A stretch of 64,000 nt of DNA from Dictyophora rubrovolvata (taxonomy: Eukaryota; Basidiomycota; Agaricomycetes; Phallales; Phallaceae): the NCBI GenBank assembly GCA_029959195.1, contig CP114123.1, positions 1,984,001 through 2,048,000 on the forward strand, written 5' to 3'. A program made the translations under genes and the position numbers. The notes beneath the pieces were generated by a model. It searched no databases. It had not been told where the DNA came from and saw only the letters and a list, made by a program, of their open reading frames with translations. Shown here one piece after another: positions 5,909 through 60,776 of this stretch (position 1 is its first letter; every line of letters starts with the position of its first letter).

Positions 5909-7641
5909 ATGAACAACAATGCTACTAATGCTACCTCTATTAATAGTAGCACAGTCGCTTTGGAATTGATCCAAGCGTTATATTTAAAGTAGGTACCCAC
6001 CTCATTGAAGATTCGGTGCTTGTTTAACTGGAGTCATTAGTTACGTAGGAATCCTTATCTCTATTAGCGCGTTAGGTGCATTATTTAAGGTCTGATAAAC
6101 TATGGGACAGCTCAATGCTGAAAATAACCTACCAGCACTCTTCATCTACACTACAGTCTTAGCTATGCCACAGGAAATGGCATACATATGGTTATCACCC
6201 AAATGGTTCAGTATTCCAAACTTGTTTTACATTTTGGCAAGATACGGAAGTTTAATTGGTCAAGCACTTGTCGTCTGGTTATCTTTTGTGCCAGTAAGCA
6301 AGAATATTTTGACGAGTTTGCAAACAGTATTAACCATTTCTTTCCTGTAAGCCTGGGAGGTAAGATATCTTACATAATTATGAAGATTGAGAAATTGACA
6401 AAGTGCAAAAGGTTGTGCAATGACCTGGCCAATTTACAGAGTGCTGCGTTCATTTCGGCGTATACTGGTCTTCAAGGTTGGCGCAGTATGTCACGTGTAA
6501 TTTGTAAACACTTCTGAACACTAGTCTAGGCTTGTTGATTACTCGAGCGTACTCATTGTGCCAAGGTAACAAGGTCATAGCGGGGGCTTTGGTCTTTTTT
6601 TATGTGGGAGGACTTGCTTTAAACATTTATAGTAACAATTCTCACTGTAATAAGACGACGCAGTACAATTCTCACATTTCATTTAGTTTCAGTAACACCT
6701 GGCGGATGCGTTCAAAGGTCAGCAATAAATTCTCAAGTATGCTAAATTTTGTCCTTAACTGTTTCTAGCTTCACCAGTATGTTCAATTAATCAATCCCAG
6801 TTGATCAATTCGATGGGTCTCTTAATGTGATAATTTTTGCAAAAGACATCCAAGTGGGCTTGGCCCAAAAAGTTTGTGTAATTGTAACCGATCTGCTTGT
6901 GTTTTGCACTTGCATCTGGAAGGTCTGGGGTACTTGGAAGTTGAAGCGCGAGACTGGCATCCGAGGTAACAATGACCTTGTTTCGGTGCTACTCAGACAA
7001 AGTAGGTTTTAATCACATCCTTGACGAAGTCGTGTCTTACATAAATATAATAACGAATTAGCCGTGTCAAGGTTTTGGTGAGCCTAAACAATAGAGAATT
7101 CTTTTTTGACAACTAATTCTGGCATTCCGGAAAGCTTCGTGGTTGTGTTTACCATTACTGGTACAGTTGTTGGTCAAGTGAGAACAACGCAATTCATTTT
7201 GTCTTCCTGGTTAGCTGACTTCTGATTTTTTTCTTCTACAGTTTGTCGATTCCGTTAGCACACTTTTTTTTGGATGAAATACTAAGTTATAATTCATTCT
7301 ACACCAGACTGTAGAGTCTGTTACAAGCAGTCTCCAACATAGGTATGATCATTTTCGTCTCCGTCCCAGTGTCATATTGTTTATCTTTAATTTCAAGTTT
7401 TTCGACCATTTTGATTGTCAATTTTACTTTGGATCTTCGTCAACAAAATTTCGCAGCAATTCGAGCTACCAATATATCATTACCAACTATTCAAATTCAA
7501 AGTATTGTGAATTATATCCACCAATCCATCCTTGAGGGAATGGGTGATCATGAAATACCGATACATACGAGTCAGATGGGGGATGAGGATGATGTCTCGG
7601 GACCTCTGGACGTCCAGATTCAATGCGAAGAGCCGGCTTAG
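5909..7641 (+). CDS. DUF6533-type seven-helix membrane protein, copy 1
   Basis: Fourteen exons are inferred by alignment to the four paralogues. The N-terminus MNNNATNATSINSSTVALEL carries Asn-Xaa-Ser/Thr sites. Exons 2-3 give the DUF6533 hallmark pattern, a helix followed by PQEMAYIWLSPKWFSIPNLF and ARYGSLIGQ. Exon 6 gives GLLITRAYSLCQGNKVIAG, the family's R-x-Y-[AS]-L motif. Exon 9 gives TDLLVFCTCIWKVWGTWKLK and the last exon a final helix plus an acidic cytoplasmic tail ending QCEEPA. Exons 4 (CCTGGGAG), 8 (CTTCACCA), 10 (16 nt) and 12 are micro-exons, and the frame is open only if they are kept. It is the most divergent of the five and uses variant donors (gtgcat after exon 2, gttagc after exon 12). 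DUF6533 proteins are fungal receptor-like membrane proteins of unknown ligand. Confidence 0.8.
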
Positions 7642-15363: not shown

Positions 15364-17098
15364 TTAAGTCGACTCTTCATGTCCAATTTCAACATCAGGA
15401 GATCCCGTCGAGGGATCGTCCTCACCCTCAGCCCTTGCATTTATCGGTATTTCATGATCGCCCATTTCCACAAGGATTGATTGATGTATATAACTTGCCA
15501 CGCTTGAAATTTGAATAGTCGGTAATGTTATGTTTGCGGCTTGAATTGCTGCGGAATTTCGTTGACGAAGATCCAAAGTAAAATCGGCAATTAAAATGGT
15601 CGAGATACTTGAAATTAAAGATCAGACAATGACATTGGAACAAGGACGGAAATGACCATACCTATGTTGAAGATCGCCCAAGATATCTATTGCAATCTGA
15701 TGTATGTATTAGCATGAATGTGACGTTCAGTGCACTTAGACTACTATGACTTAGCACTTCATTTAAAAGAGTGTACTTACGTTATTCTCAACCTGCATTT
15801 AGATGTCAGTTGCTAAGAAGATACAATCAGGTTTTGCATTGTTCTTACTTGATCAATAATTATAAAAGTGATGGTAATAACAATCACGAAGCTTTAAGTG
15901 AAGGCCAAAATGAGTCATGAAAATTTAGGATTCTTCGTTCTTCAGACTCACCAAAACCTCAGCATAGCTAATTCATTATAATGTAAACACAACTTCGCCA
16001 AGGATGTAATTAAAACATACTTTGTTCGAGTAGCACTGAAACAAGGTCATTGTCACTTCTAATGCCTGTTTCACGCTTTAACTTCCATGTATCCCAGACC
16101 TTCCATAAACAAACGCAAAAGACAACCAGATCAGTTGCGATAGTACAGACATCTTCGGCCAAGACCACTTCTTCGATAAAATCATAACACATTTAGGCCC
16201 ATTCATAACCAGCAATATTTATTCAGACCTACCAGGAACTCTAGCGAAAGAATTGAGGACAAGATTTAATGTGACTTGAATATTTATAATTCCAGACCTT
16301 TGGACACATCCGCTAGATGTTATTGCTTCTGAATAAAAGATGAGGAGTCCAGTGCATGTTCTCGCTGCAATGGGAATCCTTACCATAAAGGAATAAAATA
16401 AGCCCTCCCCCAAAAAGAGCGGCCAAAACCCCAGCTATAACCTTGTTCCCTTGACACAATGAATATGCTCGAGTGATCAACAAGCCTAAACAAATAATCT
16501 CAAGGGCATTCACACAAATCACATACCACACCAACCTTGAACACCAATATACGTTAAAAGGAACGCAGTATTCCCTACATCATTGATTGTATTATTGCAC
16601 GAGCTTTTGTATTTTCTAAATTTCCTAATCTTCATGATAATTATAATATCTTACCTTCCTAGCTGCAAGGAAGAAATGGTTAACACTGCTTGCAGACTCT
16701 TCAGAATACTGCTTACTGGAAAAAGGTCTGACCGGAAAGCAAGTGCTTGTTCAATAAAACCTGCATATCTTGTAAAAGCGTAAAGCAAATTGGGAATACT
16801 GAAAGGTTTTGGTGAAAACCACATATATATCATCTCCTGTGGTATAGCCAGTACTATAGTATAAGCAAGGAGTGCTGGCGTATTAATTGCAACATTCAAC
16901 TGTTCATTTAGTTGATTAGATATCGGATAATGTACCTGTGGTGGCAGAATCACCAAGCGTCACGACATAGCTAACCCCTGCTGGTCAAATAAATATCAAA
17001 TATTTCAAGACGGAAACCCACTCAAGATATGCTGCTTGAATCAGTTCTGAAGTGAACGCACTGCTGATAGAGGTAGCATTGGCAGTACTATTATTCAT
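15364..17098 (-). CDS. DUF6533-type seven-helix membrane protein, copy 2
   Basis: Fourteen-exon structure as in copies 1 and 3-5, start at 17098 (MNNSTANATSISSAFTSELI). It keeps the domain signatures IPQEMIYMWFSPKPFSIPNL, LLITRAYSLCQGNKVIAG, the TDLVVFCVCLWKVWDTWKLK helix/loop, and a tail ending PDVEIGHEEST. Micro-exon 4 is CTAGGAAG and micro-exon 8 AGTTCCTG; both are required to keep the frame. No break was found. A 130-bp MITE sits about 120 bp upstream of its start codon inside the conserved promoter block, a feature none of the other copies has. Confidence 0.8.
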
Positions 17099-22201: not shown

Positions 22202-23936
22202 CTAAGTCGACTCTTCAAGTCCAATTTCGATGTCCGGAGATCCCGTCGAGGGATCGTCATCACCCTCGGCCCTTGCATGAATTGGTATTTCATGATCACC
22301 CATTTCCACAAGGATTGATTGGTGTATATAATTCGCCACACTTGAAATTTGAATAGTTGGTAATGTAATGTTTGTAGCTTGAACTACCGTGGAATTTCGT
22401 TGACGAAGATCCAAAGTAAAATCGGCAATTAAAATAACCGAAATACTTGAAATTGTAGATAAACAATGGCATTGAGAAGAAGACAGAAATGTCCATACCT
22501 ATGTTGAACATCACCCAAGATACCCGCTGCAGTCTGATACAACGTGAAATTTGAAGTTCAGGACACTTAGATTATGACTTGGTACTTCATTTAAGAGAAC
22601 ATACTTACGTTATTTTTAAACTGCATTTAGAAGTCAGCTGTTAAGATATGATCAGGTTTTGCATTTTTCTTACTTGCTCAATGATTGAAATAACGATGGT
22701 AGTAATAATCGCAAAGCTTTGAAGGCAAAAATGAGTTATGAAAATTTAAGATTCATCGTTGTTCGGACTCACCAAAACCTCAACATGGCTAATTCATTAT
22801 AATGTAAACACAACTTCACCAAGGATGTAATTGAAACATACATTGTTTGAGTAGCACTGAAACAAGGTCATTGTCACTGCTAATGCCTATTTCACGCTTT
22901 AACCTCCATGTACCCCAGACCTTCCATAAGCAAACACAAAAGACAACCAGATCTGTTACGATAGTACAGACGTTTGCGGCCAAGGCCACCAAGGGTTCTT
23001 CGATCAAATCGTATGACATTTAGGCCTATTTGAACCAGCAATGTCATCTATTCGGACCTACCAGAAAAACTAGCAATAAAATGAGGACTAGGTTTAACAT
23101 AACTTAAATATTTGTTCCAGACCTTTGATAACATCCGGGAGATATTATTACTCCTGAAAAAAAGATGAGGAGTCCACCGTGTGTTCTCGCTGCAATGGGA
23201 ATTCTTACCAGAAAGGAATAAAGCGAGCGCTCCACTAAGAAAGAAAGCCAAAACCCCAGCTATAACCTTGTTCCCTTGACACAACGAGTATGCTCGAGCG
23301 ACCAACAGGCCTAAACAAATAATAATCTCCAAGGCATTCACACAAATCACATACTACACCAACCTTGAAGGCCAAGATATGTCAAAGTGAACGCAGCGTT
23401 CGCCACATTGGACACGTTATCACACAAGCTTTTGTACTCAATTTCCTAAATCTTCATGATAATTATATTATCTTACCTTCCAGACTGCAAGGAAGAAATG
23501 GTTAACACTGCTTGTAGACCCTTTAGAATACTTATGCTTACTGTCGAAAAAAAGCCTAACCAGAAATTAAGTGCCTGTGCAATAATACTTCCATATCTTG
23601 TAAAAGCATAAAGAAAATTTGGAATGCTGAAAGGTTTTGGTGATAACCACAGATATACCATCTCCTGTGGTATAGCCAGAGCCATAGTATAAACAGAGAG
23701 TGCTGCCAGGCACATTTAATTACTTTCAACATTCAACTGTTCATTTAGTTTATTAGGTATCCGATAACATACCTATGTTGGCAGACTCAATAAGCGTCTC
23801 CACATAGCTAACGCCATTCAAATAAATATCAAATATTCAAGATGGAAACTCACTCAAAATATACTGCTTGAATCACTTCTGAAGCGATCGCACTACTCAG
23901 GCTGGTAGAGGTAGCATTGGCAGTACTATTATTCAT
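22202..23936 (-). CDS. DUF6533-type seven-helix membrane protein, copy 3
   Basis: Start at 23936 (MNNSTANATSTSLSSAIASE), stop TAG at 22202. It carries IPQEMVYLWLSPKPFSIPNF, LLVARAYSLCQGNKVIAG, TDLVVFCVCLWKVWGTWRLK and a tail ending PDIEIGLEEST. Micro-exons are TCTGGAAG and TTTTTCTG. Intron 4 has lost 4 nt near its 3' end relative to the paralogues, and the frame holds only if the acceptor is the downstream acaaaag; that choice also works in the other four copies and is the one I adopt. With it the gene is open throughout. Confidence 0.75.
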
Positions 23937-41749: not shown

Positions 41750-43555
41750 ATGAACAATAGTACCGCCAATGTTACCTCTATCAGTAGTGCGGTCACTTCA
41801 GAATTGATTCAAACAGTATATTTAAAGTGGGTTTCCATCTTGAATATTTGATATTTATTTGACCAGAGGGGGTTAGCTATATCTTGACACTTTTTGATTA
41901 TGTCACCGTAGGTACGTTACCCGATATCTAATAAACTAAATGAGCAGTTGAATGTTGAAAGTACATATTAATACGCCAGCACTCTTTGTTTATACTACGG
42001 TTCTGGCTATACCACAGGAGATGGTATATATGTGGTTATCACCAAAACCTTTCGGCATTCAAAATTTACTTTATGCTTTTACAAGATATGCAGGCATTAT
42101 TCAACAAGCACTTTATCTCTGGTTAAACATTTTGCCAGTAAGCAGAAGTATTCTAAAGAGTCTGCAAGCAGTGTTAACCGTTTTTTCCTTGCAGCCAGGA
42201 AGGTAAGATATTATTATTATTAAGATTAGGAAATTCAGAAAGTACAAAAGCTTGTGCAATAATATAGCTAATGCACAGAATGCTGCATTCTTTTTGACGT
42301 ATATTGGTGTTCAAGGTTGGTGTAGTATGTGATTTGTGTGAATACCCCTGAGATTATTTGTTTAGGCCTGTTGGTCACTCGAGCATACTCATTGTGTCAA
42401 GGGAACAGGGTTATAGCTGGGGTTTTGGCTTTCTTTTTTGGGGGAGGGGTTATTTTAATCCTTTATGGTAAGAATTCCCATTGCAGCGAGAACGCGCGGT
42501 GAACTCCTCATCTTCTTTCAGGAATAATAACATCTGGCGGATGTGTTCAAAAGTCTGGAATTATCAATATTCAATTTATGCTAAATCTTGTTCTCAATTT
42601 TTTTGCTAGTGTTCCTGGTAGGTCTGAATAAATATTGCTGGTTACAAATGGGCCTAAATGTGTTATGAATTTATCGTAGAAGTGGTCTTGGCCGAAGATG
42701 TCTGTACTATTGCAACTGATCTGGTTGTCTTTTGTGTTTGCTTATGGAAGGTCTGGGATGCATGGAAGTCAAAGCGTGAAACTGGTATTCAAAGAGACAG
42801 TGATCTTGTTTCAGTGCTACTCAAACAAAGTATGTTTCAATTACATACATCCTTGGCGAAGTTGTGTTTACATTGGATTAGTTATGCTGAGGTTTTGGTG
42901 TGTCTGAACAACGAAGAATCCTTTTTCATGACTCATTTCGGCCTTCAAAGCTTCGTGATTATTATTTCCATCACTTTTATAATTATTGCTCAAGTAAGAA
43001 TAATGAAAAACCTGATTGTATCTTCTTAGCAACTGACTTCTGAATGCAGGTTGAGAATAACGTAAGTACACTCTTTTAAATGAAGTGCTAAGTCATAGTA
43101 GTCTAAGTGCACTGAGCTTCAAATTCATACTACATCAGATCGAAATAGACACCTTGGGCGATCTTCAACATAGGTATGGCTATTTCTGTCCTTATCTCAA
43201 TGTTATTGTTTGATCTTTAATCTCAAGTATTTCGGTTATTTTAATTGCCGATTTTACTTTGGATCTTCGTCAACGAAATTTCACATTAATTCAAGCCGCA
43301 AACATAACATTACCAACTATTCAAATTTCAAGCATGGCGAGTTATATACTATCCTTGTTGAAATGGGCGATCATGAAATACCGATACACACAAGGACCGA
43401 GGGTGATGACGATCTCTCAGCGGGATCTCCGGATGTTGAAATTGGACGTGAAGAGTCGACTTAGGATCGGCGTTCAGTTTTGGAATCCGATGAGCACAAA
43501 ACTCAGTGTCAGGACTCGGAGTGGACGGATTCTAGGCCTTACTATATATTTATAA
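41750..43555 (+). CDS. DUF6533-type seven-helix membrane protein, copy 4 (C-terminus frameshifted)
   Basis: Start MNNSTANVTSISSAVTSELI at 41750. It keeps all signatures (IPQEMVYMWLSPKPFGIQNL, LLVTRAYSLCQGNRVIAG, TDLVVFCVCLWKVWDAWKSK) and micro-exons CCAGGAAG and TGTTCCTG. In the last exon a 7-nt deletion relative to copies 1-3 and 5 (at about 43.35 kb, after ASYI) changes the tail from HQSILVEMGDHEIP... to LSLLKWAIMKYRYTQG..., stopping at 43555 instead of 43464. All seven helices precede the change, so the protein may still fold with an altered, now basic, cytoplasmic tail. Confidence 0.75.
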
Positions 43556-59062: not shown

Positions 59063-60776
59063 ATGAACAATAATACCACCGATGTTACCTCTATCAGTAG
59101 TGCGACGGTCACTTCAGAATTGATTCAAATAGCATATCTAAAGTGGGTTTCCATCCTGAATATTTGATATTTATTTGGCCATAGGGTGTTAGTCATGTCT
59201 CCATACTTGTTAACATTGCCACTACAGGTATGCTATCCAATATTTAATAAACTAAATGAATGTTGAAAGTGATATGTCAGCACTCTTTGCTTACACTATG
59301 GTTCTGGCTATACCACAGGAGATGGTATATATGTGGTTATCACCAAAACCTTTCAGCATTCCAAATTTGCTTTACGCTTTTACAAGATATGCAAGTTTTA
59401 TTGATCAAGCACTGACTTCCTGGTTAGGCTTTTTGCCAGTAAGCAGAAGTATTCTAAAGAGTCTGCCAAGCAGTATTAACCATTTCTTCCTTGCAGACAG
59501 GAAGGTAAGATATTATAATTATCGGAAGATTAGGAAATTCAGAAAGTACAAAAGCTTGTGCGACAATGTAGCCAATGTAGGGAATGCTGCACTCATTTTG
59601 ACATATATTGGTCTTCAAGGTTGGTGTAGTACATGATTTGTGTGAATGCCCTTGAGATTATTTGTTTAGGCTTGTTGGTCGCTCGAGCATACTCATTGTG
59701 TCAAGGGAACAAGGTTGTGGCTGGAATTTTGGCCTTCTTTTTTGGGGGAGGACTTATTTTATTGCTTTATAGTAAGAATTCCCATTGCAGCGAGAACACA
59801 CAGTGAACTCCTCATCTTTTTCAGGAGTAATAACATCTGCTGGATGTGTTCAAAGGTCTGGAATTATCAATATTCAATTTACGCTAAATCTTGTTCTCAA
59901 TTTTTTTGCTAGTGTTCCTGGTAGGTCTGAGTAAACATTGCTAGTTACGAATGGGCCTAAATGTGATATTATTTTATCGAAGAACCCCTAGTGGCCTTGG
60001 CTGGAAATGTCTGTACTCTCTCGACTGACCTGGTTGTCTTTTGCGTTTGCTTATGGAAGGTCTGGGATACATGGAAGTTAAAGCGTGAAACAGGCATTAG
60101 AAGTGACAATGACCTTGTTTCAGTGCTACTCAAACAAAGTATGTTTCAATTACATCCTTGGTGAATTTGTGTTTACATTATAATGAATTAGCTATTTCGA
60201 GGTTTTGGTGAGTCTGAACAATGAAGAATCCTTTTTCATGATTTATTTTGGTCTTCAAAGCTTCGTCATTGTTATTATCATCACTTTTCTAATTATTGAG
60301 CAAGTAAGAATAATGTAAAACTGATTGTACCTTCTACTGACTTCTAAATGCAGGTTGAGAATAGCGTAAGTACACTCATAAATGAAGTACTAAGTCATAA
60401 TAGTCTAAACTGAACTTCAAATCCATGCTACATCAGATTGCAATAGATATCTTAAGCGATATTCAACAGAGGTATGTATGGTCATTTCTGTCCTTATCCT
60501 AATGACATTATTTGATCTTTAATTTCAAGTATTTCGGCTATTTTAATTGCCGATTTTACTTTAGATCTTCGTCAACGAAATTCCGCAGCATTTCAAGCCA
60601 CAAACATAACATTACCAACCATTCAAATTTCAAGTGTGGCGAATTATATACACCAATCAATCCTTGTGGAAATGGGTGATCATGAAATGCCAATACATGC
60701 AAGGGCTGAGGGTGAGGACGATCCCTCGACGGGATCTCCGGACATCGAAACTGGACATGATGAAGAGTCGACTTAG
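59063..60776 (+). CDS. DUF6533-type seven-helix membrane protein, copy 5
   Basis: Fourteen exons: 59063-59142, 59193-59227, 59281-59438, 59497-59504, 59555-59619, 59670-59771, 59825-59855, 59913-59920, 59983-60138, 60192-60207, 60261-60303, 60354-60365, 60437-60471 and 60530-60776, 331 aa with the frame intact throughout. The N-terminus MNNNTTDVTSISSATVTSEL is glycosylatable. The DUF6533 core is IPQEMVYMWLSPKPFSIPNL...TRYASF, followed by LLVARAYSLCQGNKVVAG, TDLVVFCVCLWKVWDTWKLK and a last helix ISAILIADFTLDLRQRN. The acidic tail ends IETGHDEEST. It is the clearest model for the family. Confidence 0.85.

Follow-up and report, generated by a model that had tools for sequence, protein, structure and literature searches.

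The window analysed here, a stretch of 64,000 nucleotides on contig CP114123.1 (contig C7) of Dictyophora rubrovolvata, holds five copies of genes encoding DUF6533, a basidiomycete-specific region of membrane proteins (PMC10949477). These are gene A (5909..7641, forward strand), gene B (15364..17098, reverse strand), gene C (22202..23936, reverse strand), gene D (41750..43464, forward strand) and gene E (59063..60776, forward strand). The spliced products of E and A, the two of the five genes that were scored, reached 29.5 and 30.9 bits against PF20151 (cut-off 24.1), and six-frame PF20151 matches above the cut-off fall in A, B, D and E, with none listed for C. The original prediction described a five-gene family; five copies are indeed present in the window, but the family is far bigger, as at least 144 DUF6533 matches were found in the genome (28.2 Mb, 11 contigs). 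Over the part common to genes A-E, dN/dS ranged from 0.39 to 0.81 (10 pairs), which is weak to moderate constraint. Two further copies lie just beyond the window end (L039, C7:2049700-2052400, and L040, C7:2056500-2059300), and by eye the 400-nt interval from exon 9 to exon 14 is identical between them, which suggests a recent duplication or conversion.

Gene models obtained by aligning the five copies and joining exons comprise 14 exons apiece, separated by 13 short introns. The start of exon 5 in gene E is probably 59555, 12 nt farther downstream than the naive 59543 (corrected exon 5, 59555..59619, forward strand), as judged from the copies compared: the downstream AG is present in 38/40 loci and the upstream AG in 9/40. 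The naive acceptor was rejected, since it leaves an intron 4 of only 36-40 nt, has no AG in A and C, and puts C out of frame. With the downstream AG, intron 4 measures 48-52 nt, and the frame holds in all five genes up to the end of exon 13 and, in A, B, C and E, as far as the stop codon; in gene E, the corrected model is open from ATG to stop and encodes 331 aa. Compared with A, B, C and E, exon 14 of D (43228-43464) lacks 7 nt, which puts the C-terminal tail of D in another frame.

Within these models, exons 4, 8, 10 and 12 are 8, 8, 16 and 12 nt long and are flanked by AG and GT in all five window genes, in agreement with the blocks and places originally proposed. In gene E, they occupy 59497..59504, 59913..59920, 60192..60207 and 60354..60365 (forward strand), the last being a multiple of three. 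In the same order, they lie at 6352-6359, 6769-6776, 7062-7077 and 7242-7253 in gene A, at 16655-16662, 16233-16240, 15952-15967 and 15781-15792 in gene B, at 23477-23484, 23062-23069, 22773-22788 and 22609-22620 in gene C, and at 42195-42202, 42610-42617, 42882-42897 and 43050-43061 in gene D. All are internal and have canonical splice sites, and three of them fall within the 15-nt limit used for micro-exons, whereas the 16-nt exon 10 is a micro-exon only in the wide sense, which according to the MEPDB abstract extends to 51 nt. The original observation that intron lengths vary among copies by non-multiples of three was borne out by the models of A-E. Constancy of exon length held for the four micro-exons of A-E but not for exons 1, 3, 5, 7 and 9, which differ between copies by multiples of three, or for exon 14 of D.

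Forty additional DUF6533 copies of the same genome were retrieved, the majority of which could be anchored through their large exons. Between anchors, we counted AG-block-GT arrangements with block lengths of 3 to 24 nt and at least 38 nt on each side, window genes included; loci lacking the required anchors were excluded, which left 36, 42, 44 and 41 of 45 for exons 4, 8, 10 and 12, respectively. The count ignores both the frame and the block's own sequence, dinucleotide shuffles served as the control, and the loci are related copies and hence not independent trials. An 8-nt block was found in the exon-4 gap of 29/36 loci (2.2 expected from the shuffles) and in the exon-8 gap of 23/42 (3.1 expected). 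In the exon-10 gap, 42/44 loci had a 16-nt block (3.7 expected). In the exon-12 gap, blocks of 9, 12 and 15 nt occurred in 23/41, 13/41 and 16/41 loci, with about 6 expected for each. The micro-exon blocks thus recur between copies beyond what the shuffles yield, and the blocks, their splice sites and the recurrence of block length across copies are direct observations. Other lengths were also enriched: 4 nt (12/36) and 5 nt (7/36) for exon 4; 6 nt (11/42), 12 nt (9/42) and 14 nt (9/42) for exon 8; 6 nt (23/44), 10 nt (11/44) and 20 nt (9/44) for exon 10; and 7 nt (11/41) for exon 12. On inspection, the 4-nt peak of exon 4 and the 6-nt peak of exon 10 are due to an AG inside the block.

When the best block was chosen by splice score without any frame constraint, the expected mod-3 class was obtained in 27/41 loci for exon 4, 35/45 for exon 8 and 30/44 for exon 12; for exon 12 of A and E, however, the unconstrained top pick was another block, 15 nt long and at a different place from the modelled exon. 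For exon 10, the expected class was picked in just 19/49 loci because the block has an internal AAG, and frame-free picking was dropped for this exon as confounded. These counts include five of 20 deeper DUF6533 loci, namely those with usable anchors (L079, L087, L091, L093 and L094), and exclude the other 15.

The blocks vary in length in some copies. When the frame was required in scoring, which selects in-class lengths by construction, lengths ranged from 5 to 17 nt for exon 4, from 5 to 23 nt for exon 8 and from 3 to 24 nt for exon 12. Exon 4 has 5 nt instead of 8 in L043, L044 and L049 on contig C5, which form one clade in a tree of the copies whose labels were partly set by hand from the splice-score listing and from which no events were counted. 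In L066, exon 4 is 14 nt long, or 8 nt with a GAG acceptor. Exon 8 was scored at 14 nt in eight copies, and exon 12 at 18 nt in L045 and at 3 nt in L041 (TTT) and L042 (CTT), with complete splice sites on both sides in the latter two; this 3-nt exon 12 looks like either a one-codon exon or a skipped relic. Splice scoring returned no exon-4 block of the right class in L050, L054 and L056. In L050, the block is visible by eye outside the scoring margin; in L056, just 71 nt separate the anchors of exons 3 and 5, and exon 4 seems to have been lost. Two irregular loci were noted in passing: exon 3 of L055 apparently ends, by eye, at a GC donor (GCAAGT) and not at GT, and in L077 exons 3 and 6 are approximately 1.7 kb apart, with the first 150 nt shown looking repetitive.

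The blocks differ in how clearly they behave as coding sequence. Counting whole codons, no in-frame stop was found in exon 4 (0/30 blocks), exon 8 (0/25) or exon 10 (0/38), and in the other two frames stops occurred in 22/38 (shifted by one position) and 2/38 blocks of exon 10, 4/30 and 1/30 of exon 4, and 0/25 and 2/25 of exon 8. The contrast between frames is strong for exon 10, slight for exon 4 and absent for exon 8. Third positions are more variable than the other two in exon 4 (1.47 vs 1.08 and 0.93) and exon 10 (1.31 vs 0.88 and 0.84), and exon 8 has no such excess (1.40 vs 1.52 and 1.22). Most intron sites around exon 10, past the splice signals, vary at 1.5-2.0 bits, and many sites downstream of exon 4 at 1.1-1.5 bits; exon 8 is barely less variable than its flanks. 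Among the 15-nt candidates for exon 12, one of six contains a stop.

Based on these comparisons, it is very probable that the blocks are coding micro-exons, inherited through the expansion of the family and spliced by recognition of short introns; our confidence is slightly lowered by the weak sequence conservation of exon 8. True introns around true micro-exons, as originally proposed, are the best reading, since the same block lengths recur in place in most anchored copies. According to the mechanism that we propose, these DUF6533 membrane-protein genes would be cut by 13 short introns, with the four coding blocks as micro-exons, and the cell would recognise introns, not exons, removing the flanking introns singly. 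Intron-wise recognition is most likely because each flanking intron has its own donor, its own acceptor and an ordinary length: in the window genes, introns measure 48-84 nt beside micro-exons (n=40) and 46-70 nt elsewhere (n=25). Removal of the first flanking intron would join the tiny block to a larger exon, after which the second intron could be removed. Because 8 and 16 nt are not divisible by three, skipping exon 4, 8 or 10 between fixed neighbours would shift the frame, and skipping exon 12 would preserve it. The ancestor of the subfamily would already have had this architecture and passed it on through duplications. From the DNA, we infer that the blocks are present in mRNA, that their inclusion is constitutive, and in which order the introns are spliced. 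Branch-site motifs, as searched, were uninformative (7/25 introns not flanking micro-exons, with 5.0 in shuffles; 21/40 flanking introns, with 9.8 in shuffles).

The micro-exons may be real and yet regulated, a frame-shifting skip serving as an off-switch of a receptor-like protein. Precedents in fungi include the microexon switch described in Trichoderma Xlr2 (PMC11121469) and a truffle NACHT family whose codon-sized microexons are described as alternatively spliced (PMC4986451). However, the DNA carries no sign of regulation, and inheritance together with the need to keep the frame explains the conservation equally, so we regard such a switch as unlikely.

A further possibility concerns where the micro-exons fall in the protein. 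The SNB1 protein (Snowball, encoded by snb1) of Coprinopsis cinerea likewise contains DUF6533, and it is described as having seven predicted helices and an N-terminus predicted outside (PMC10949477). The hydropathy profile of E contains five strong stretches (residues 28-51, 101-126, 128-158, 164-190 and 206-244, overlaps merged) and a weak one (238-257); helices 2 and 7, as well as the placement of exons 8, 10 and 12 in loops or at helix edges, were assigned by eye. Exon 4 of E (residues 92-94) is clear of the hydropathy stretches and lies ahead of helix 3, exon 8 (160-163) is where helices 4 and 5 meet and touches a stretch at 143-162, and exons 10 (215-220) and 12 (235-238) are at the two ends of the 206-244 stretch. 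Across the five genes, the loop between helices 5 and 6 carries 4-5 K/R plus 2-5 D/E, compared with 0-1 K/R in each loop that holds exon 4, 8 or 12 and 1 in each of the remaining two; the charge rule thereby gives weak support to the topology. Given the outside N-terminus predicted for SNB1, exons 4, 8 and 12 would lie in outer loops and exon 10 at the inner-face edge of helix 6. The outer-loop micro-exons differ in length from copy to copy, whereas exon 10 was found at 16 nt in 42/44 loci. One could then imagine the micro-exons as small interchangeable pieces of loop that adjust contacts with ligands as the receptor family expands, a skip that shifts the frame serving as an off-switch. We consider this proposal distinctly unlikely, its odds being slightly lowered because hydropathy stretches overlap exons 8, 10 and 12.

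The original argument for the micro-exons was that the reading frame closes only if the blocks are kept. Under a rival reading there would be no micro-exons: each pair of introns, with the block between them, would form one long intron of approximately 113-152 nt, and alternative splice sites in or near the adjoining exons would close the frame. The frame-closure argument does not hold as it was put. Omission of the 12-nt exon 12 leaves the frame intact, and a spliced profile aligner written for this analysis closed the frame without exon 4 in four of the five window genes (A, C, D and E). In runs blind to the micro-exon residues, exon 4 was retained in one gene (B), exon 10 in four, and exons 8 and 12 in all five; after these residues had been taken out of the profile, the aligner retained exon 8 in 5/5 genes and exons 4, 10 and 12 in 0/5, finding other closures in every gene. 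In the other copies, it recovered exon 4 as 8 nt in 12/40 and exon 10 as 16 nt in 28/40. Frame closure was therefore rejected as proof, since the aligner finds other closures and the exon 3-5 interval of gene E is open without splicing. Nevertheless, the substitute sites required by a long intron vary by copy (exon 5 would be 73 nt in A, D and E and 82 nt in C), whereas blocks of one or few lengths recur in diverged copies, and an intron formed by such joining would have roughly double the length of the others. Taken together, these points make the long intron very improbable. Exons 4, 10 and 12 could not be proven from any single gene; on the evidence of the genomic sequence, comparison of the copies does prove them. 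This comparative evidence, absent from the original prediction, carries the case, which appears firmest for exon 10, then for exons 4 and 8, and least firm for exon 12; frame closure is weakest for exon 4 of E and for exon 12.

In gene E, the interval from exon 3 to exon 5 could instead remain unspliced and be read through as coding, since a 126-aa ORF (59256..59636) spans exon 3, intron 3, exon 4, intron 4 and exon 5 in the correct frame at both ends. Such a read-through is open in just one of 40 loci, gene E itself, and of the 14/40 loci that keep the frame, 13 have a stop, which makes this reading highly improbable. Exons 9-11 of gene D are also open as a read-through. Stwintrons, nested introns in which an inner intron interrupts the donor or acceptor of an outer one, have been described in fungi. 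In such an arrangement the block would belong to the outer intron and would finally be removed; this is just as improbable here, with exon 12 as the least clear case, given the coding-like constraint in exons 4 and 10 and the fact that removing the 8-, 8- or 16-nt block of exons 4, 8 and 10 between fixed outer sites shifts the frame instead of closing it.

Micro-exons inherited with the gene copies may characterize only part of the family. In most of the 15 unanchored deeper DUF6533 loci, a clear exon-4 block was not seen by eye, and we therefore take the micro-exon set to be a property of a subfamily, not of DUF6533 as a whole. The large family found here also differs from what is described for snb1, a possible ortholog, with 1-3 homologs in most Agaricomycetes (PMC10949477), a paper whose main text never uses the word "intron".

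Micro-exons are already known in basidiomycetes, and what is added here is a set of four at constant positions, retained across the copies of a large gene family. The P450 genes of Phanerochaete chrysosporium, also a basidiomycete multigene family, are described as having introns of 45-55 bp and, in many members, exons down to 6 bp (PMC1184071), and CYP5141A1 has an 8-nt exon within a conserved motif (PMC12940212). They belong to another protein family, whereas in DUF6533 genes four positions were traced through dozens of copies in the same genome. In Phlebia radiata, exons of a few codons or of less than one codon are reported as typical of the genome, and the passage in question makes this as a general remark, without a family-wide comparison (PMC6540522). 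Clusters of plant microexons resemble the present case as small coding exons, often unannotated, in a conserved gene structure, but they are backed by RNA-seq (PMC8831610), whereas the DUF6533 micro-exons are known here from DNA. Literature searches on DUF6533 and on micro-exons or similarly tiny exons in basidiomycetes, including Agaricomycetes and mushrooms, gave no paper on micro-exons of DUF6533 genes among the matches listed.

The dozens of copies in one genome form a natural series of tiny exons (5-16 nt) whose phase is known, which is useful for testing how the fungal spliceosome copes with them and for training gene finders. Gene models that leave these exons out are probably wrong, and the original prediction that standard gene finders would overlook them is in keeping with the profile aligner, which missed exon 4 in four of the five window genes. 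In genomes of this kind, DUF6533 gene models, and the copy counts resting on them, may be wrong.
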